Shown one piece after another: positions 9,627-39,227 of a stretch of DNA of 64,000 bases. The stretch comes from Blautia glucerasea (GTDB taxonomy: Bacteria > Bacillota > Clostridia > Lachnospirales > Lachnospiraceae). The translations under genes were made by a program, and so were the position numbers. Under the pieces are notes generated by a model. It worked only from the letters and a program-made list of their open reading frames with translations. It did no database searches and was not told the DNA's origin. Each line of letters starts with the position of its first letter. The first letter of the stretch is position 1. The stretch lies in assembly GCF_013304385.1 (NCBI RefSeq), contig NZ_JAAITU010000006.1, positions 62,001 through 126,000 on the forward strand. Direction: 5' to 3'.

Positions 9627-9846
9627 TGCTGTGACATGATAGCTATGAAGCGAGAGGTTGCTACCACATGGTAGGTTTTCCGTGGAGCGAATGTCAAGTT
9701 AGGAAACTGACGACAAGTCACTGTACAAGTTCAGAAGACCATCTAGGGATGGGCGTGTGGAAAGATGTCTTAGGACACACACGGAGATGTGTACAGTCGC
9801 CGCTTGTCGTACTGATTGTGAGTACGAATAGGAGGAGACTTTTTTT
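9627..9846 (+). ncRNA. Structured 5' leader of the S10 ribosomal operon
   Basis: About 220 untranslated bases with several hairpins: CTACC/GGTAG (9661-9674), GTC-AGTT/AACT-GAC around an AGGA loop (9693-9711), CGTGTG/CACACG enclosing TGTC/GACA (9754-9783), and TCGTAC/GTACGA (9807-9827) directly before AGGAGGA (9830-9836) and the rpsJ ATG. Leaders that bind a ribosomal protein (L4 or S10-operon products) are known for such operons in several phyla; that this one is autoregulatory is inferred. Confidence 0.6.
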
Positions 9847-23236: not shown

Positions 23237-23530
23237 TGCCTGGATTGTGTGGTATGCGGCTGCAGTTGAGACACCCGGACAGGTTGTCAGGACTGATGAA
23301 ATAATGAACTATTCATGTATTGCCTAATACCGAGAGGCGACGTTGGCCCGTTGGCCGCAACAAATCGGAAAGGCCGCAACACGCCAAAGCGGCTGGGTGT
23401 ATTACCGAGGCACCCCAATTAGGAATGAAGGAGAAGGCAGCGTACAGATGCACCCCATTTCACCTTGTAGAAATACAAGTGGTGTACAGGACGAAAGGCT
23501 TTCAGTAAAAGAAAATGGAGGAAACAGTAC
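23237..23530 (+). ncRNA. Probable structured spacer/leader upstream of rpsM
   Basis: 294 bases without a convincing gene. It holds a direct repeat GTTGGCC-C-GTTGGCC (23342-23356), a repeated GGCCGCAACA, a GGGTG/CACCC hairpin (23395-23415) and a CTTGTA/TACAAG hairpin closed by a GAAA tetraloop (near 23464-23479), shortly before the rpsM site. GC-rich and structured compared with other spacers of the operon; an autoregulatory leader is a guess. Confidence 0.45.
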
Positions 23531-30971: not shown

Positions 30972-31544
30972 ATGAAGCTTTTAAAAGACCGTATTCTTAA
31001 GGATGGAGTTGTGAAGCCTGGAAATATTCTTAAGGTAGACAGTTTCCTGAACCATCAAATGGATATTGATCTGATCAATGAGATCGGAAAGGAGTTTAAG
31101 GCGCGGTTTGCTGACTGCCCGATTACAAAGATCCTTACTATTGAGGCTTCAGGCATCGGGATCGCCTGTATTGCAGCACAGTATTTCCATGTACCAGTAG
31201 TATTTGCCAAGAAAGCACAGAGCGTTAATCTGGATGGGGAGATGTATACTACAAAGGTAGAATCCTTTACCCACAAGAAAGTTTATGATGTGATCCTTGC
31301 AAAACGGTTCCTCACAGAGCAGGATCATGTTCTTCTGATCGATGATTTCCTTGCAAATGGATGTGCCCTTTTGGGACTGATCGATATTGTAAAGAAATCC
31401 GGAGCTACCCTTGAGGGAGCCGGTATTGTGATTGAGAAAGGCTTCCAGTCTGGTGGACAGCAGATCCGTGATATGGGTGTTCGTCTGGAATCCCTTGCCA
31501 TCATTGAGTCCATGAGCGATACATCCCTTACATTCAGGGAATAA
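30972..31544 (+). CDS. xpt: Xanthine phosphoribosyltransferase
   Basis: 190 residues. The PRPP motif is visible as [15 protein letters not shown], and the substrate side as [11 protein letters not shown] and VFAKKAQS. Converts xanthine plus PRPP to XMP for purine salvage. GGAGAAAAAAC precedes the start. The usual purine riboswitch would not fit in the 66 bases to the preceding gene, and no guanine aptamer sequence is seen. Confidence 0.95.
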
Positions 31545-32246: not shown

Positions 32247-33788
32247 TTATAAAATATGATTAATCTTGACTGAAATCATGTCAATGAGCCAAACCAGCAG
32301 GATCAGGCCCAAAAGGATAGCACCGGCCTTTTCCCAGGCATACTGATTCATGGAAAAGATCAAGGGTGCACCAATGCCGCCAGCACCTACAAGACCAAGC
32401 ACAGAGGCTTCACGGATATTTACATCAAACCGATACAGGAAGATGGAGATGAAGATTGGTTTTAGCTGTGGCAAAATACCATGGCATATAGCAGGTACCG
32501 GATGAGCTCCCATAGCCAGCAGGGCGCGATAAGCTTTCAAATCTATGGCATCCAAGGCTTCTGTAAAGCGTTTTGTAAGAAGGCCGATACTGCACATGGA
32601 AAGAGTAAGAACTCCTGTAAAGGGTCCAGGGCCAGATACACGGATAAAAATCAGTCCATAGATGAGAAAAGGAATGGATCGGATGGCAATAATCAACAGA
32701 TTGAAAATAAAGGCAACAGATCCAGATACAAAACGTCTGGTATTCACAAAGGACAAAGGAATCGAGAAAACCGTACCAATTACAGTGCCTGCAAAAGCGA
32801 TGCAAAGAGTTTCCAGGATAAGGGTAAAAAGTCCGTCTTTCTTAGTGGAAAAGAAGAAGCCCCAGTCTGGTGACAGAAAACCGGAAAACATATTTTTCAT
32901 GGTCTGAAGGCTTGTTCTGCCAAAATCCGGAGGAGACAGAGTGATGGTGCAAACAATAAACAGGGCTGTCAGAAAAAATAGCAGCAGCTTTATGTACTTT
33001 TTTTTCAATGTGCATTCTTTTCGGATCAGGGCGGCCAGATAGCGGCTAAGGTTTTCAATAGTGAAAACAGCCAGGAAAAGTACCAGTAAAATGGCTCCTA
33101 CTTTTTCATACTCCAGCCAGGATATTTTTTCGTTCAGAAGAAGACCAATTCCTCCTGCGCCTACATAACCAAGAATAGAACTGTGACGCACATTGGTTTC
33201 CAACATATATAGTGCGTTGGTGAAAAAAGAGGAGGCTATTTCCGGGAAAAGCCCGTGGATGTATGCTGGGAAACGAGACACTCCCATGGTTCGAAGTGCC
33301 TGATAAGCCAATGGAGAGGCAGCTTCCATATCCTGATAGGTAAGCCGGGTCATAATGGCAAAGGTATACAAGGTGATGGCAAAGGTGCCGGCAAAGGTTC
33401 CAAGACCGAAGAGAAAGGTGGCACAAAGAGCAAGGATCAGTGCTGGGAAAGACCGCAGGATTTGTATGAGAAAACGGAGAACATAACGGATCCATTTTGG
33501 AAAATCCATGGAACCTGCACATGCAGGTGCCAGGATACAAGCCAGTACTGAGCCGATCACAGTACCTGTAACAGACATCTGTATGGTGTAAAACAGTGGG
33601 GTAAGAATATGTGGAATATAAGCAAAATCCATAGGAAACATGCCGGATAGAAGATCAGTAAGATGACTCCGGCGCTTCCAGAACAGGACAGGATCACATT
33701 GTGTATAGACTACTGTAAAAAGAAACAGACATAAAAAAAGAAGGAAGCAGGCTAGTCCTTTCCATCTGTTTTTACTGCTTCTGGTCAT
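32247..33788 (-). CDS. phnE: PhnE-type ABC permease, two permease domains fused in one chain
   Basis: 513 residues, about twice the length of a single PhnE. Each half has the transmembrane permease domain with its own EAA-type loop: SSILGYVGAGGIG in the first half and ASVLGLVGAGGIG in the second. The two halves are related but not identical, so this is an old duplication, giving a pseudo-dimer permease that needs no second subunit. Start overlaps phnC by 4 bases. Predicted to move a phosphonate-like or other small anionic substrate. Confidence 0.85.
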   Translation of the reverse strand: MTRSSKNRWKGLACFLLFLCLFLFTVVYTQCDPVLFWKRRSHLTDLLSGMFPMDFAYIPHILTPLFYTIQMSVTGTVIGSVLACILAPACAGSMDFPKWIRYVLRFLIQILRSFPALILALCATFLFGLGTFAGTFAITLYTFAIMTRLTYQDMEAASPLAYQALRTMGVSRFPAYIHGLFPEIASSFFTNALYMLETNVRHSSILGYVGAGGIGLLLNEKISWLEYEKVGAILLVLFLAVFTIENLSRYLAALIRKECTLKKKYIKLLLFFLTALFIVCTITLSPPDFGRTSLQTMKNMFSGFLSPDWGFFFSTKKDGLFTLILETLCIAFAGTVIGTVFSIPLSFVNTRRFVSGSVAFIFNLLIIAIRSIPFLIYGLIFIRVSGPGPFTGVLTLSMCSIGLLTKRFTEALDAIDLKAYRALLAMGAHPVPAICHGILPQLKPIFISIFLYRFDVNIREASVLGLVGAGGIGAPLIFSMNQYAWEKAGAILLGLILLVWLIDMISVKINHIL

Positions 33789-34576
33789 AGTCCCACATCC
33801 TTTCGGTTTTTATTCAGAGAACAGACACTGGAATTTCCGTAAATGGTACGGATCACAGAATCATTTATTTCATCAGGAGAACCATCGAACACAATTCTGC
33901 CATTGTTAAGTCCGATGAGACGGTGGGAAAATTCCATGGAAAGTTCCAGATTGTGGCTGTTCATAAGAACTGTTACTCCATCTTTTTGTTGAATATCTTT
34001 TAAAAGAGACAGTATTTGACGGCCTGTAACAGGATCAAGAGAAGCGATAGGTTCATCTGCCAGAAGCAGAGAAGGCTGCCGCATTAAGGCCCGGGCAATG
34101 GCTGTCCGCTGCTTCTGTCCGCCGGACAGGTTCTTTACCGGCTCTTGTTCTTTTTCGGCCAGACCGACCCGGGTAAGCAGCTGAAGGGCCTTTTCTGTAC
34201 GTGCAGTACCATAAAGCCCCAGAACAGCAGGGAAAAAGCTCATGTCAGGAAGTGCAGCGGTAAGCACATTCTCTAGACAGGAACTGTTTTCCACAAGGCA
34301 GAAATCCTGATAAATAGTAGACATGTTCTTCTTAAACTGCCGTTTTTGTTGTCTGCGAATGTTCTCCATAGGATGATCATCTATAAGGATCTGGCCTTTT
34401 GTGCAGTCTTCCGTTCCATTTAACAGGCGGAATAGGGTTGTTTTTCCTGCACCGGAAGGACCGATCACAGAGACGAATTCTCCCTGGGAAATGGAAAAGC
34501 TAATGTCTTCCAGTGCAGTAACATGATTTTTAAATGCTTTATGAATATGCTGGATCTGGAGCTTTATGGGAATCAC
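33785..34576 (-). CDS. phnC: PhnC-type ABC transporter ATPase
   Basis: 263 residues with Walker A GPSGAGKTT, signature LSGGQKQR, Walker B LLLADEP. Couples ATP hydrolysis to the neighbouring permease. The start is uncertain: the GTG at 34576 sits only 2 bases after AAGGA, whereas the best spacing falls on ATA at 34567; GTG is given here. Lies 5 bases after phnD. Confidence 0.9.
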   Translation of the reverse strand: MIPIKLQIQHIHKAFKNHVTALEDISFSISQGEFVSVIGPSGAGKTTLFRLLNGTEDCTKGQILIDDHPMENIRRQQKRQFKKNMSTIYQDFCLVENSSCLENVLTAALPDMSFFPAVLGLYGTARTEKALQLLTRVGLAEKEQEPVKNLSGGQKQRTAIARALMRQPSLLLADEPIASLDPVTGRQILSLLKDIQQKDGVTVLMNSHNLELSMEFSHRLIGLNNGRIVFDGSPDEINDSVIRTIYGNSSVCSLNKNRKDVGL

Positions 34577-34581
34577 CTTCC

Positions 34582-35613
34582 TTATTCTTCGGATTTCAGA
34601 AGTTTCTGTGCCTCACGTTCACCGTCATAATTGGAGTCGTCGCCCCATTCATAGCCAACCTGGCTGAAGACGCTGATGATATCCTTTCCTTCTTCCGTCT
34701 GAGCGATTTCGATGAAAGAATCTCCAAGAGCCTGTCGGAAATCCTGGTCAGCCATTGTCTCAGAAGTTTTACTGTAAGCGATCATATCATTGTAGATCTT
34801 GTCTGTTACTCCGATCACACCTGTCTGGTTTATCATATCGTCAGTACCGCCAAAGGTTTCTTTCCATTCCGGTGCATATTTGGTGCGGATGTGCGCATAG
34901 GATACCATTATATCTGCCTGTCCGGATGCAAGTCTGGCAAGAGACGTGGTATAAGAATCAGATTCTACAGCATGATCCAGATCGCTGATTCCTTTGCCAT
35001 AACGTTGAAGGAGCCACAGGCTGGGGTAAATATATCCTGAAGCAGAGGTTGGCCCCATAACAGCCCAGGTAGCATCGTTTAAATCATCCCAGGTAAGCTC
35101 TTCACCATTATTCACCTTTTCAAGAAGTGCCTGTCCTTTTTCACTTGGACCTGCAAGAAAGATGGAACGGTAATAGGTGGACATGTCATCCGTATTTTCT
35201 TCAACCGTGCCATCATTCCAGTCTTTCGGGTCATCAGAGTCCTTGTTGATTCCGTAGCGGAGTGCAGTGAGAAGCACATCGCAGTCATCAGAGAAAAGTA
35301 CGTAATTGCCTCCGGAAATAAAGCCGATATCTGCACTTCCTGCGCTTAATGCCTGTCCTACTGCTGTGTAGCTGGTGCCCACAGTCATGTCTACATTTTC
35401 TACATCATAGCCTTTTTCCAGAAGGGTTTCTTTTAAAAGGTTTTCCAGCGGCTCGGTAGCAGTTGTAATAGTATCAGAGTCTGCATATGGGGAGAATGCG
35501 ATTTTTAATGAGTCAATGGTTTTGGCATCAGAAGCAAATGCCAAGCTGGTGTTTCCTAAGGTAAGTCCCAGGCAGAGAGCCAGAGAGAGTGCTGATGTGT
35601 TTCTTTTCTTCAT
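34582..35613 (-). CDS. phnD: PhnD-family substrate-binding protein, apparently not lipidated
   Basis: 343 residues from the ATG at 35613 (after ATGGAGGACTTTGTA). Sec signal cleaved near LAFAS; no lipobox, since the only signal-region cysteine is in LALCLG with leucine before it. The mature part matches phosphate/phosphonate-binding proteins: KIAFSPYADSD, SYTAVGQALSAGSADIGFISGG, GPTSASGYIYP. Substrate cannot be read from sequence. It is transcribed from a long structured leader with a terminator, so expression is probably attenuated in response to a ligand. Confidence 0.82.
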   Translation of the reverse strand: MKKRNTSALSLALCLGLTLGNTSLAFASDAKTIDSLKIAFSPYADSDTITTATEPLENLLKETLLEKGYDVENVDMTVGTSYTAVGQALSAGSADIGFISGGNYVLFSDDCDVLLTALRYGINKDSDDPKDWNDGTVEENTDDMSTYYRSIFLAGPSEKGQALLEKVNNGEELTWDDLNDATWAVMGPTSASGYIYPSLWLLQRYGKGISDLDHAVESDSYTTSLARLASGQADIMVSYAHIRTKYAPEWKETFGGTDDMINQTGVIGVTDKIYNDMIAYSKTSETMADQDFRQALGDSFIEIAQTEEGKDIISVFSQVGYEWGDDSNYDGEREAQKLLKSEE

Positions 35614-35647
35614 TACAAAGTCCTCCATAAATTTGATTATCTGCCAA

Positions 35648-35676
35648 ATAAAAAAGTACATACCGCAGCATGTACT
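35648..35676 (-). terminator. Intrinsic terminator (attenuator) in the phnD leader
   Basis: On the minus strand AGTACATGC pairs with GTATGTACT (one G-U) around TGCG, followed by TTTTTT, ~35 bases before the phnD start codon. Its position inside a 5' leader suggests conditional termination. Confidence 0.8.
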
Positions 35677-35898
35677 GAAGAAATGACTTTCAGGCAGATG
35701 CTGACAATCCACCTATATAAGGCGGACAGGTTTCGGTCGATCCTTACGGGATCCTCTCAGCCTGGAAATACAGGCTCCCTCGCAATCTGGTTTTCGTCAT
35801 CATATTTTAAGAATGCACCGGCAATCTTGTTAAGATGCCGGAGATTATATTGATCGCAGCGGCAGGGCGCTCCCCCTTCCGCTGCATTCCGTTAACCG
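35677..35898 (-). ncRNA. Structured 5' leader of phnDCE, candidate riboswitch with thi-box-like segments
   Basis: From the predicted start (~35898) the minus-strand RNA has a GC hairpin GCAGCGG/CCGCTGC (near 35857-35887), a CCGGCA/TGCCGG hairpin, then a multi-stem element: GAGGGAGCCTG ... CAGGCTGAGAGG, a GATCC/GGATC hairpin, GACCGAAACCTG and a CCGCCT/AGGTGG hairpin with loop TATAT. CTGAGA and AACCTG resemble the TPP aptamer core, but its 3' consensus (GCGNAGGGA) is not seen. An intrinsic terminator follows. So a riboswitch is likely; its class is uncertain. Confidence 0.55.
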
Positions 35899-35904
35899 AG
35901 AATG

Positions 35905-35933
35905 ATTGTATCATATCTCTATAAAAAACACAA
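35905..35933 (-). promoter_or_regulatory. Promoter of the phnDCE unit
   Basis: Minus strand TTGTGT (35928-35933), 17-base spacer, TACAAT (35905-35910) with an extended TGA before it. It lies just after the stop of the APH-fold gene. Confidence 0.75.
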
Positions 35934-35945
35934 TAGGGCGTGTGA

Positions 35946-37058
35946 CTATGGACGGGCAGGGATAACTGGCTGCTTATCTCTCTGACGCCAGATACGTCCT
36001 ATCGCATCGTAATCAATCACACCAGTATCCATATAATGGAACAGCAAATCCTTCATATCCTGACCCCAGGTATCACGAATCCCATCAATGTATCCCCAGT
36101 AAGACTGGGCAAGCTCCAGGAGACGGCATCCTGCAAGAAAATCAATGGCTTCAAAATCAGAAACAGAAGACGGAGTATTTTTACCGCCGGCCTCCTGATA
36201 ACCATCAAAAAAAGCTTTCTCAGCTTCTTCAAAGCAGGTATGGTCATAAAAGTTGTAAAGGAAGAACCGGAAACCATAGAACTCAAGGGCAGCAGGTGCT
36301 GCCTGTGCAGATTCCAGGTCAAAATATCCGGTAGGAACGCCCTGTGTATCTGTAAAGAAATTCTCAGCATGCATGTCTGTAAAAACTAATACAGGAGGCA
36401 TTTTGTCTTTATCAAAATAAGGACGTAAGGCTTCCAGCTTTTCATGGAAAAATCTGGTTACAACTGTCTGTTCTGAAGGGGTAAAGACTTCTTTTTGATG
36501 ACAGCGGAGAAGCCGCATGTCCACAACCTGAAGAAAACGGTCTGAAAAATTAGTCATATCAGAAGGCTCGATCACAGAGTCTTCCATAATATTCCCAAAA
36601 GAGGGAAAGGTAATATTCTGAATGCGTGCAAAATCACGGCCAAGATATTTCATACTGTCAAGAAATACCTTTTTGGAGTAACCGCTTTGTACCATACACT
36701 CTTTCTGGGAGATACCACTCATTCTTTCAAGAAGAATAAACTTCCCGTAAGGAGAGTCATGTACTCCGTACACTTCCGGTGTAGGAACATTTGCTTGCTG
36801 ACGGATCATACGGAAAAGATATGCTTCCCTTCCAAGGGAAAGTGTACCTCCAAACAAAGTGTCTTTATTTTCCTGTGAAAGCCCTTCTTCTGTTTCTCTG
36901 ACTCTGGCGAATTTACAGATAGCTGGTTTGCCACCTGCCAGAGTTACATCAAATACATAGTGGTTGCTTCCCTCGTTGATCTGGCTGATAGCATCCACAG
37001 TATATCCGCATTCTGTAAGGGCTTTTCTGGCTTTTTCCACATCAATACTCTGTGCCAT
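35946..37058 (-). CDS. APH/choline-kinase-fold phosphotransferase
   Basis: 370 residues of the aminoglycoside-phosphotransferase fold. ATP-site lysine in AICKFAR, catalytic loop VFTDMHAENFF (aspartate, histidine and asparagine in family positions) and metal-binding aspartate in GYFDLESA. Members phosphorylate small hydroxyl compounds such as aminoglycosides, choline, thiamine, homoserine or methylthioribose; the substrate is unknown. Its start is 18 bases after the YheO-type regulator, so the two form an operon; a separate promoter then drives the transporter. Not necessarily a resistance gene. Confidence 0.8.
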   Translation of the reverse strand: MAQSIDVEKARKALTECGYTVDAISQINEGSNHYVFDVTLAGGKPAICKFARVRETEEGLSQENKDTLFGGTLSLGREAYLFRMIRQQANVPTPEVYGVHDSPYGKFILLERMSGISQKECMVQSGYSKKVFLDSMKYLGRDFARIQNITFPSFGNIMEDSVIEPSDMTNFSDRFLQVVDMRLLRCHQKEVFTPSEQTVVTRFFHEKLEALRPYFDKDKMPPVLVFTDMHAENFFTDTQGVPTGYFDLESAQAAPAALEFYGFRFFLYNFYDHTCFEEAEKAFFDGYQEAGGKNTPSSVSDFEAIDFLAGCRLLELAQSYWGYIDGIRDTWGQDMKDLLFHYMDTGVIDYDAIGRIWRQRDKQPVIPARP

Positions 37059-37076
37059 ATTAAATATCTGTCCTTT

Positions 37077-37739
37077 TTATTTATTGTTTGCCTCCAGCTG
37101 ATGAAGATATCGATAAATCGTGGCTTTGGAACTGCCAAGTTTATCAGCCACTTCGTTGACGGAGCCTTTTGCCAGGAAAACACCTCTGCTGTCCATTTCG
37201 CGGATAGTAGAAATCTTTTCGTTGGCAGTCAGTCTGTTAGGAGGAGCTCCGAAACGGATGGTAGCTTCCTCCAGAACCCTGTCTATGATCTCTGTCACAG
37301 ACAGGGTAAGTGCTTCAAAAGATTGTTTTGGTGAACTGCCATGCTTGGATTTGCGGAGAACATTATGATCCTGTTCTCCGCTGATCAGCATATCCATCAT
37401 ATTGCGCAGGCGTACAAGCTCACCAACACACTGGTTGACCGTAAGCAACCCCTCAAGAGTACCATTGGCATCACGGATGAATAGCGTTGCTGAACGGACC
37501 TTTTCCCCTGTTTTGGACAGAGTCCGGTAATTGATATTGTAGGGAATATTCCTGCACTCTGGATTTTGAATCAGAGCCTGTTGCATTTCTCCGATAGGAG
37601 CACCTTCGAAGCGCTCTTCGTCCATGGAATTCTCAATCAGAAGAATATTCTCAGTGTCACAAAGAATCACTTCCGTATTGGAACCCATATAAAGGGCAAG
37701 GAATTCAACAATAGGTCTGTAAAAATCAACATTCAGCAT
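37077..37739 (-). CDS. YheO/DauR-type regulator (PAS-like and HTH domains)
   Basis: 220 residues. N-terminal YheO-like PAS domain (residues ~5-120) and C-terminal HTH_22 (NEVADKLGSSKATIYRYLHQLEANN). Related regulators respond to small metabolites, for example DauR for D-arginine catabolism. Sits between a tryptophanase-like lyase and an APH-fold kinase on the same strand, and is the best candidate regulator of both. GGAGAACCTACT precedes the start. An inverted repeat lies immediately upstream. Confidence 0.8.
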   Translation of the reverse strand: MLNVDFYRPIVEFLALYMGSNTEVILCDTENILLIENSMDEERFEGAPIGEMQQALIQNPECRNIPYNINYRTLSKTGEKVRSATLFIRDANGTLEGLLTVNQCVGELVRLRNMMDMLISGEQDHNVLRKSKHGSSPKQSFEALTLSVTEIIDRVLEEATIRFGAPPNRLTANEKISTIREMDSRGVFLAKGSVNEVADKLGSSKATIYRYLHQLEANNK

Positions 37740-37768
37740 AGTAGGTTCTCCTTTGAGGAAGATTATTG

Positions 37769-37807
37769 GTAACTATTCAGTTAATTGTCATGGAGCTGAA
37801 CAGTTAC
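37769..37807. promoter_or_regulatory. Inverted repeat upstream of the YheO-type regulator
   Basis: GTAACTATTCAG (37769-37780) and CTGAACAGTTAC (37796-37807) match in 11 of 12 positions across a 15-base spacer. It lies between the lyase stop (37820) and the regulator start (37739). No T-run follows on either strand, so it may be an operator or processing hairpin. Confidence 0.6.
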
Positions 37808-37819
37808 TATTAGTGGTAT

Positions 37820-39205
37820 TTATAAAAGTTCAAATCCGGCTGTGAAGTGGCGCAGGGACTGGATAGAACCTTGATGAACGATCTTCATGCCTCGATACTG
37901 ATCTCTGTTTTCATAGATGTCACCAAGTGCATTGGCAATCACATCCATATGATTGTTGGTATAAACACGGCGGTTGATGGCAATACGCATAGCCTCGATA
38001 GCCGGATAAACAGGCTCGCCTGTGATCTTGTCAATGGAACCGAAAGCACATGCACCAATCTCAACAGCACGTACACCTGCTTCTTCGTAAAGTGCACATA
38101 CAAGACGCTGGCTTGGGAATTCGCTCTGAGGGATCTGTGGGAAGAAGCGGCGACCATCCACATATACACCGTGACCGCCGGTAGGCTCGATGATCGGAAC
38201 TCCTCTTTCTTTTAACTTTTCGCCAAGATAAGCCACCTGTTTGATGCGGTAGTCAAGGTAATCAAAGTCGCATGCTTCCTGAAGGCCTACAGCAAGTGCT
38301 TCCATATCACGGCCGGACATACCGCCGTATGTAATGAAACCTTCGTGTACAATTGCAAGCTGGTTTGCCTGCTCATAAACACTCTTATTTCTTGTAACAA
38401 AAAGACCGCCGATATTTACAAGACCATCCTTTTTACTGGACATGGTGGCTGTCTCACAGTAACTGAACATTTCATTGGTGATCTCTTTGATGCTCTTGTT
38501 CTCATAGCCTGGCTCTCTTGTTTTGATAAAGTAAGCATTCTCAGCCAAACGTGCACTGTCGAGAACAACCGGGATATTGTATTTCTTGCAGAGAGCGCTG
38601 ACTTCACGGATATTCTGCATGGATACAGGTTGTCCGCCGTTATTATTGCAGGTAATAGTAATGATACATACGCAGATATTCTCTGCACCCTTCTCATCGA
38701 TCAGGCTCTGCATCTTGTTAAGGTCGATATTTCCTTTGAAAGGATGAGGAGCAGAAGCAGTGTCCATACCTTCAGCAATAGCATAATCTACAGGCAGGCA
38801 TCCCATCATTTCAGCGTTGCCTCTGAATGTGTCAAAGTGCATATTGCCAATGGCATAAGCACCTGGACGACAGTAGATCTGAGTCATGATGTAGTCGGCT
38901 GCACGTCCCTGATGGGTAGGCTGTACGTAAGGCATGCCAAAGATATCCTGTACGGAAGCTTCCAGACGGTAAAAGCTGCGGCATCCTGCATAGGCTTCGT
39001 CACCCATCATCATAGCTGACCACTGCGCCTGGCTCATTGCACTTGTACCGCTGTCAGTGATACAGTCGATATAAACCTGTTCAGATTTCAGGCGGAATGC
39101 ATTGTATCCGGCTTCCTGAAGCCATTGCTGGCGCTGGGCTTTTGTAGATCTGGTAATTGGCTCTACCATTTTAATACGAAATGGTTCTGCGGTCATGTAC
39201 TTCAT
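37820..39205 (-). CDS. tnaA: Tryptophanase-like beta-eliminating lyase
   Basis: 461 residues from ATG 39205 (after AAGGAGGGTCCTATTTT). PLP-dependent fold with the cofactor lysine at position 259 in MSSKKDG. Residues that separate tryptophanase from tyrosine phenol-lyase favour tryptophanase: Asp125 in HFDTFRG, Ile383 in AVEIGA (Arg in phenol-lyases) and His453 in LRHFTAG (Phe in phenol-lyases). The reaction would be L-tryptophan to indole, pyruvate and ammonia. The FRGN that follows Asp125 differs from the usual TQGH, so another side chain is possible. No TnaC-type leader peptide fits in the short 5' region. Confidence 0.75.
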   Translation of the reverse strand: MKYMTAEPFRIKMVEPITRSTKAQRQQWLQEAGYNAFRLKSEQVYIDCITDSGTSAMSQAQWSAMMMGDEAYAGCRSFYRLEASVQDIFGMPYVQPTHQGRAADYIMTQIYCRPGAYAIGNMHFDTFRGNAEMMGCLPVDYAIAEGMDTASAPHPFKGNIDLNKMQSLIDEKGAENICVCIITITCNNNGGQPVSMQNIREVSALCKKYNIPVVLDSARLAENAYFIKTREPGYENKSIKEITNEMFSYCETATMSSKKDGLVNIGGLFVTRNKSVYEQANQLAIVHEGFITYGGMSGRDMEALAVGLQEACDFDYLDYRIKQVAYLGEKLKERGVPIIEPTGGHGVYVDGRRFFPQIPQSEFPSQRLVCALYEEAGVRAVEIGACAFGSIDKITGEPVYPAIEAMRIAINRRVYTNNHMDVIANALGDIYENRDQYRGMKIVHQGSIQSLRHFTAGFELL

Positions 39206-39227
39206 AAAATAGGACCCTCCTTGTAAA

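Follow-up and report, generated by a model that had tools for sequence, protein, structure and literature searches.

The analysed stretch of Blautia glucerasea DNA, here called the window, is 64,000 nucleotides long and carries on its minus strand a leader between an APH-type kinase gene (35946-37058) and a phnD-like gene that starts at 35613. The leader comprises several stems and a terminator and is followed by a GGAGG ribosome-binding site and an ATG. Upstream of it, genes for a protein of the tryptophanase/tyrosine phenol-lyase type, a YheO-like PAS-HTH regulator and the APH-fold kinase stand in a row (35946-39211, minus strand). The features of the leader and of the transporter genes behind it are listed below in window positions; the trio is the window and two related leaders, L006 and L007.

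35905-35933, minus strand: promoter read in the sequence, with −35 hexamer TTGTGT (35933-35928), a 17-nt spacer and −10 hexamer TACAAT (35910-35905) preceded by TG
35856-35885, minus strand: D1 hairpin, with an outer stem, a purine-purine mismatch, a 4-bp inner stem and a GGAGCG loop (35873-35868)
35818-35841, minus strand: linker hairpin CCGGCATCTTAACAAGATTGCCGG, extra relative to L006 and L007, which are without it (alignment A1)
35796-35801, minus strand: 5' strand of P0, GATGAC, with partner GTCATT at 35687-35682, a pairing described for the phnD-linked trio alone
35783-35789, minus strand: 5' strand of P1, CAGATTG, with partner CATCTG at 35700-35695 and one bulged U, invariant in the trio
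35735-35779, minus strand: TPP-type arm P2-P3-J3/2-P3a (Rfam TPP positions 13-53; covariation in P3 and P3a), in which P2 pairs GG 35779-35778 with CC 35736-35735, P3 pairs 35775-35771 with 35764-35760, J3/2 UGAGAG occupies 35759-35754 and P3a pairs 35753-35749 with 35743-35739
35701-35729, minus strand: P4/P5-like hairpin without the TPP GCG signature, CTG 35729-35727 pairing with CAG 35703-35701 and stem 35726-35721 with 35713-35708
35666-35703, minus strand: candidate antiterminator, CAGCAT 35703-35698 with ATGCTG 35671-35666, invariant in the trio
35650-35676, minus strand: intrinsic terminator from the terminator scan, stem AGTACATGC / GTATGTACT followed by a U-run
34582-35613, minus strand: phnD-like substrate-binding protein gene, 343 aa, ribosome-binding site GGAGG at 35626-35622; Pfam Phosphonate-bd, PtxB/PhnD/p37 fold
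33785-34576, minus strand: phnC-like ATPase gene, 284.6 bits with NCBIfam phnC (cut-off 266.1)
32247-33788, minus strand: phnE-like permease gene, 513 aa, 435.6 bits with NCBIfam PhnE (cut-off 216.7)

An earlier note on this DNA had described a candidate riboswitch-attenuator in front of a PhnDCE-like transporter, and its promoter hexamers, stems, 9-bp terminator with U-run and ribosome-binding site were all read again in the sequence. The promoter TTGTGT-17-TACAAT lies on the minus strand and its spacing is kept in L006 and L007; it was missing from the output of a promoter scan because TTGTGT agrees with TTGACA at three of six positions, and the other site picked by the scan, within the leader, scored no better than shuffles. 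The terminator stem (35676-35655; nine pairs, loop of four, T-run) is the sole terminator-like site in 35300-36300, for which shuffled sequences average 1.0. The folding of the leader beats all 200 of 200 dinucleotide shuffles (z = −3.78). Two further observations concern the leader's ends. The sequence CGGTTAACGGAATGC at 35898-35884, near the presumed 5' end of the RNA, is identical in the window, L006 and L007. ATCTGCC at 35699-35693, which overlaps P1', could pair with GGCAGAT at 35645-35639, directly after the terminator U-run, and TCTGCC/GGCAGA is kept in L006 and L007 (by eye).

The leader was said to contain CTGAGA after a GCC/GGC stem and an AACCTG segment, as in TPP aptamers, with the 3' TPP consensus missing. 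Both segments are present, and the Rfam TPP model (RF00059) matches model positions 13-53 of 105 and stops there, the leader having no GCG P4/P5 arm. CUGAGA and GCG are given as the pyrimidine-binding and pyrophosphate-binding motifs of the TPP riboswitch in PMC9544697. The Rfam search proposed earlier revealed a TPP half-match of 16.1 bits where the gathering score is 54.3 (E = 1, small search), which by Rfam alone is at chance level; what lifts the leader above chance is the existence of two homologous phnD leaders and of 47 covarying loci that share its design. All Rfam matches in the leader stayed below the gathering score of their family, which in the whole window was reached only by the S10-Clostridia (9637-9716) and S4-Clostridia (23368-23423) ribosomal protein leaders. 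Weak matches to FinP, DapZ, PhotoRC-I and KCNQ1OT1 near the leader were taken as chance. The window also holds a xanthine phosphoribosyltransferase gene (30972-31544, 276.4 bits), with no purine riboswitch at the gathering score in the window.

Homologous phnD leaders had been suggested as the source for a covariance model. A search with the PhnD-like protein returned nine loci. The leader is present at two of them, L006, whose protein is 97% identical, and L007 (77% identical), which is one and the same stretch as G063/L003. Alignment A1 of the trio has two near-invariant blocks, D1 and the TPP-like block, and in the latter three pairs vary yet remain paired. At the remaining seven loci (51-55% identity) the RNA was not found, the best match scoring 12.3 bits (E 0.14). 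With a near-exact DNA pattern, 397 genomes gave the window and a single relative and no more, and a covariance model was therefore used. Model R1 represents the TPP-like block and is narrower than model R2; it had matches in 70 of the 397 genomes searched in the family of the window and in 46 of 295 in its order. The matches inspected were of two kinds, ordinary TPP riboswitches and RNAs with the core seen in the window, D1 upstream of it and no TPP 3' half. Sixty stretches were fetched, with several short matches (positions 27-71) set aside, which makes the member count a lower bound.

Model R2 (D1 and the arm) was built from 25 sequences, leaving out the window, L006 and L127, the first two because MAFFT misplaced their P3 loop. 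Run on 291 genomes of the class, it gave matches at E ≤ 0.001 in 77, with E-values that are rough because calibration was shortened; the window scored 61.0 bits, 15 other genomes 61.7-91.9 bits and all other listed matches at most 49.4 bits. The phylum search covered 299 genomes, of which 43 matched; scores of at least 61 bits were confined to the window, G698 once more, and G1109 as the one addition. In total, 47 loci with 46 distinct sequences score at least 61 bits with R2, 25 of them being its own building set. They consist of 28 D1-bearing cores, 15 loci from the class search, L203 (from G1109), L204 (from G063), and L075 and L126, which had been dropped as core repeats from the tally of cores below and were added again.

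This tally separates the RNA from TPP riboswitches. Of 109 distinct TPP-like cores, 28 have D1 and no TPP 3' half, 79 show the reverse and two have neither, namely L078, which is coding DNA by eye, and L037. The TPP 3' half, scored by a strict sequence pattern, was present in none of the 28 D1-bearing cores and in 79 of the 81 others; a looser pattern marked 10 of the 28 as TPP. L037 (G179:C2:192138-192267, minus strand) stands before thiE and is a second kind of odd TPP-like RNA, scoring 29.9 bits with Rfam TPP: its pyrimidine arm is normal, D1 is absent and its 3' half does not have the P5 sequence usual in TPP riboswitches. The D1-bearing family and the TPP riboswitch have the P2-P3-UGAGAG-P3a arm, the GG/ACC P2 pairs and downstream thiamin genes in common, and, as among TPP riboswitches, some members are linked to a terminator and others have a start codon close behind. 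Unlike the TPP riboswitch, the family has a GAGC-loop hairpin upstream and is without the P4/P5 GCG pyrophosphate site, and the score of the window lies far under the gathering cut-off. The earlier choice between a diverged TPP aptamer and a different aptamer thus proved not to be an either/or: the RNA is related to TPP aptamers, has a different 3' half and forms a family of its own. D1 (35885-35856) had been seen as one of several stems; its role as the conserved element standing in place of P4/P5 had not.

The helices of the family covary, the opposite of what had been named as grounds for dismissing the riboswitch. In alignment A5, made with MAFFT and without the model, 92.9% of the cells are paired and 16 of 22 pairs are changed on both sides, compared with at most nine for slid structures. 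Alignment A6 contains all 47 loci fitted to the model, and so leans towards it; 91.8% of its cells are paired and the covariation score is 0.617 compared with at most 0.149 for slid structures. The count of pairs changed on both sides in A6 (17) is a weak measure, reached by 24 of 500 shuffles and nearly matched by a slide of +1, which gives 15. Within the D1 helix, 10 of 10 pairs are changed on both sides in A6 and 9 of 10 in A5. Two unpaired segments are fixed. UGAGAG in J3/2 is invariant at 47 of 47 loci (the window reads CUGAGAG, with a leading C found in four only), and GAGC is present in every D1 loop. The D1 loop region reads GGAGCG at 42 loci and CGAGCG at two (L148 and L149), which gives GCG at 44 of 47 and leaves three without it. 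D1 bears no convincing likeness to a permuted P4/P5 (by eye), and a pairing of its loop with CGCU in P1' was dropped, also by eye, because GAGC is fixed even where P1' is without CGCU (the window, L032).

The enclosing helices are less uniform. P1, which surrounds the arm and the part following it, was significant by shuffling at 22 of 47 loci, with a wrong P1 anchor at L141 in this test; in the trio it was not significant (p 0.73-0.89; window 0.74). P0 is invariant in the trio and so gives no covariation evidence. One pair of the P4/P5-like hairpin varies across the trio (GU, AU, GC).

The genes behind the RNA form a coherent set. Forty of the 47 loci have thiW as the next gene downstream, two have thiM, one has thiS-thiG and three have a phnD-like gene (the window and its two kin); at L116 no open reading frame was obtained and no thiamin gene was recognised by eye. 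The first open reading frame was picked automatically at 46 loci, of which 39 match ThiW, two ThiM, one ThiG and three Phosphonate-bd; at L136 the automatic pick was in the wrong frame and the ThiW frame was seen by eye, giving the fortieth thiW, and at the thiG locus ThiS precedes ThiG (by eye). Genes of thiazole supply thus follow at 43 of 47 loci, the window's own not among them; unlike the TPP riboswitch, this family is linked to genes of thiazole supply only, with the phnD trio and L116 as exceptions. A TPP riboswitch, identified by pattern, ends at most 400 nt upstream at 23 loci, with a T-run in between at 21 of these. Genome G063 has the RNA twice, before phnDCE (L003) and, behind a TPP riboswitch, before thiW (L204). 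The 47 loci hence combine a covarying conserved structure with functionally coherent genes, as expected of a riboswitch, and the family is probably an undescribed riboswitch type. No description of such an RNA appeared in the titles and abstract beginnings of the open-access literature matches listed, and the novelty is provisional.

Because the same RNA precedes thiW, thiM or thiS-thiG at 43 of 47 loci, the transporter of the window probably concerns a thiamin-type compound, in line with the earlier idea that it might deal with thiamine-like substrates. The part of that idea that had included the neighbouring APH-fold kinase found no support: its gene ends upstream of the promoter and so lies outside the controlled unit. 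It also adjoins the leader in L006. The partial open reading frame upstream of the L007 leader matched no Pfam family.

Thiamin genes were also searched for in the host. Genes thiC (652.7 bits), thiD and thiE are present above their cut-offs, thiE adjoining thiD and an open reading frame labelled HAD-type by eye. Two TPP riboswitches (53 and 50.4 bits, slightly below the cut-off) precede a ThiT-type transporter gene (89.2 bits, cut-off 108.5) and thiC. ThiM gave no match in this genome, rated 99.97% complete in 175 contigs. A ThiG match above the Pfam cut-off (31.6 bits) is FabK by NCBIfam, and a ThiW match below the cut-off (21.6 bits) is a folate-type ECF S component. As judged from gene content, this shows a host predicted to make the pyrimidine half and the coupling enzyme, with no recognised thiazole source among thiM, thiW and thiG. 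Since the host has no such source and the transporter stands under this RNA, the PhnDCE-like system is the obvious candidate for thiazole import. That ThiM gave no match would be in keeping with HET phosphate as the imported form, or with a kinase that escaped recognition.

In its ATPase and permease, both above the NCBIfam cut-offs, the transporter resembles PhnDCE/PtxABC phosphonate/phosphite systems, and PtxB is the top fold match of its binding protein. Unlike in those systems, the binding protein is far below the cut-off of the NCBIfam PhnD equivalog (38.9 against 261.1 bits). The permease has two BPD_transp_1 stretches in one chain, which are two separate genes in L009. The best predicted model of the binding protein has a mean pLDDT of 84.5 (the other four, 43-56), and a fold search with it placed PtxB first and PhnD with it as best by E-value. 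The predicted fold is also like that of Mycoplasma p37, which by E-value stands at ranks 24 (PDB 3myu, TMq 0.60) and 44 (3e78, TMq 0.63), with TM-scores comparable to those of PtxB/PhnD. Mycoplasma p37 is a thiamin-binding protein whose system includes a single long permease. A sequence likeness to p37 was not significant, with E 0.06 for all ten relatives and 0.079 for the trio, level with antibody chains; what the seven unlinked relatives matched did not include p37.

The three riboswitch-linked proteins share departures from these seven relatives at several sites that are otherwise conserved. A 5'-nucleotidase gene is a neighbour at all four of the unlinked loci tested (L008, L009, L010 and L012), which suggests uptake of nucleotides or phosphate esters there and a substrate different from that of the trio; L009 also has a nucleoside hydrolase gene. 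As the RNA was not found at the seven loci and the four tested have a 5'-nucleotidase neighbour, thiamin transport is not a general property of the transporter family. The link of phnD to the RNA comprises three loci, two of them at 97% protein identity, and within it the PhnDCE-like system is a candidate for importing thiazole or a B1 moiety related to it.

How the RNA may switch was approached through its terminators. Terminators were called at 20 of the 47 loci, some of them doubtful, and none within 260 nt at the other 27. An upstream antiterminator partner, meaning a stretch located after the arm and before the terminator that can pair with the 5' arm of the latter, was scored against mononucleotide shuffles; 12 of the 20 reached p ≤ 0.05 and eight did not. 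The 12 are L007 (p 0.025) and 11 thiW members, many of them closely related, and the window (0.14) and L006 (0.11) were not significant. In ten of these thiW members the antiterminator segment is placed after the arm and ahead of the best P1', or else runs into P1' (L141 cannot be judged), and in the trio it overlaps the 3' strands of P4 and P1. With the segment at or before P1', a closed P1 and the antiterminator would be mutually exclusive unless a pseudoknot forms. By our judgement this slightly favours OFF as the direction of switching. Such a topology argues against simple activation by HMP-PP, for which the gene logic and the tandem order argue.

Taken together, these data make it likely, in our view, that a TPP-derived cis-regulatory RNA family controls thiazole supply in response to a pyrimidine-type ligand, and that the PhnDCE-like system is a thiazole importer. 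The aptamer would keep the TPP pyrimidine pocket (P2-P3-UGAGAG-P3a), would have lost the diphosphate-binding P4/P5 arm and would have gained the GAGC-loop hairpin directly upstream. Its ligand would most likely be a pyrimidine-bearing thiamin compound other than TPP, such as HMP-P/HMP-PP, thiamin or thiamin monophosphate. In the window, the RNA may choose between terminator and antiterminator ahead of the PhnDCE-like ABC importer, which would take up thiazole as HET or HET phosphate, or else a B1 moiety close to it.

Among these ligands, HMP-PP (or HMP-P) acting on an ON switch is a tentative possibility: pyrimidine that piles up without thiazole would turn on thiazole uptake or synthesis. This is the logic of the thiS motif, described in PMC6478431 as an HMP-PP riboswitch of the ON type; it is linked to HET-P genes, thiW among them, and in many cases follows a TPP riboswitch directly. 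The gene set (HET-P synthesis or salvage at 43 of 47 loci here, not the window's own) and the tandem order agree with that description, as do the intact UGAGAG at all loci and a host with thiC and thiD and no recognised thiazole gene. The aptamer would nevertheless be a different one. The thiS motif is, in the same paper, one compact aptamer embedded in an intrinsic terminator; here two modules lie apart from the terminator, as in the window, or no terminator is called, as at 27 loci. Rfam 15, which may or may not include the motif, gave no thiS-motif family among the matches of the window, the leader and 14 loci. The significant antiterminator strands, lying between the arm and P1' or overlapping P1', would moreover make the closed aptamer favour termination. 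That placement suits an OFF switch sensing thiamin or thiamin monophosphate as product feedback, a reading we consider somewhat unlikely. A less phosphorylated ligand would explain why the pyrimidine pocket was kept and the GCG arm lost, and the host thiE adjoins thiD and the HAD-type frame; a second product sensor would be partly redundant where a TPP riboswitch already lies upstream, as at 23 loci.

Continued binding of TPP, with the GAGC hairpin replacing P4/P5 as the diphosphate site and the tandems merely sharpening the response, is improbable. Half of the TPP aptamer is conserved and GCG occurs in the D1 loop region at 44 loci, but three loops are without it, none of the 28 D1 cores tested has the TPP 3' half, and the ordinary TPP riboswitches of the host precede other genes. 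Degenerate TPP riboswitches devoid of sensor function would account for the weakness of the Rfam TPP matches (window, 16.1 bits; family member L075, 24.9 bits). Such decay is very hard to reconcile with a new hairpin, an invariant loop, strong covariation and an unchanged UGAGAG at all 47 loci, and we give it little credence.

The preferred reading remains a TPP-derived family in control of thiazole supply. The RNA is real and conserved, and its design is new for the lineage of TPP riboswitches; its ligand, its direction and the substrate transported are predictions. We lean, with modest confidence, to a new riboswitch class that arose from the TPP riboswitch, with the diphosphate arm exchanged for a separate upstream hairpin and the ligand changed to a thiamin precursor or a less phosphorylated form, and to the PhnDCE-like system as a new thiazole importer. 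If this is true, the TPP aptamer has been taken apart in nature, one arm being kept, the other swapped and the ligand probably changed, which would be a direct case of the evolution of riboswitch specificity. The gene association would also offer a route to missing thiazole transporters: in a human gut-genome survey (PMC6593275), ThiW and ThiU are listed as HET transporters, and ThiW was present in only 64% of the HET (thiazole) auxotrophs.
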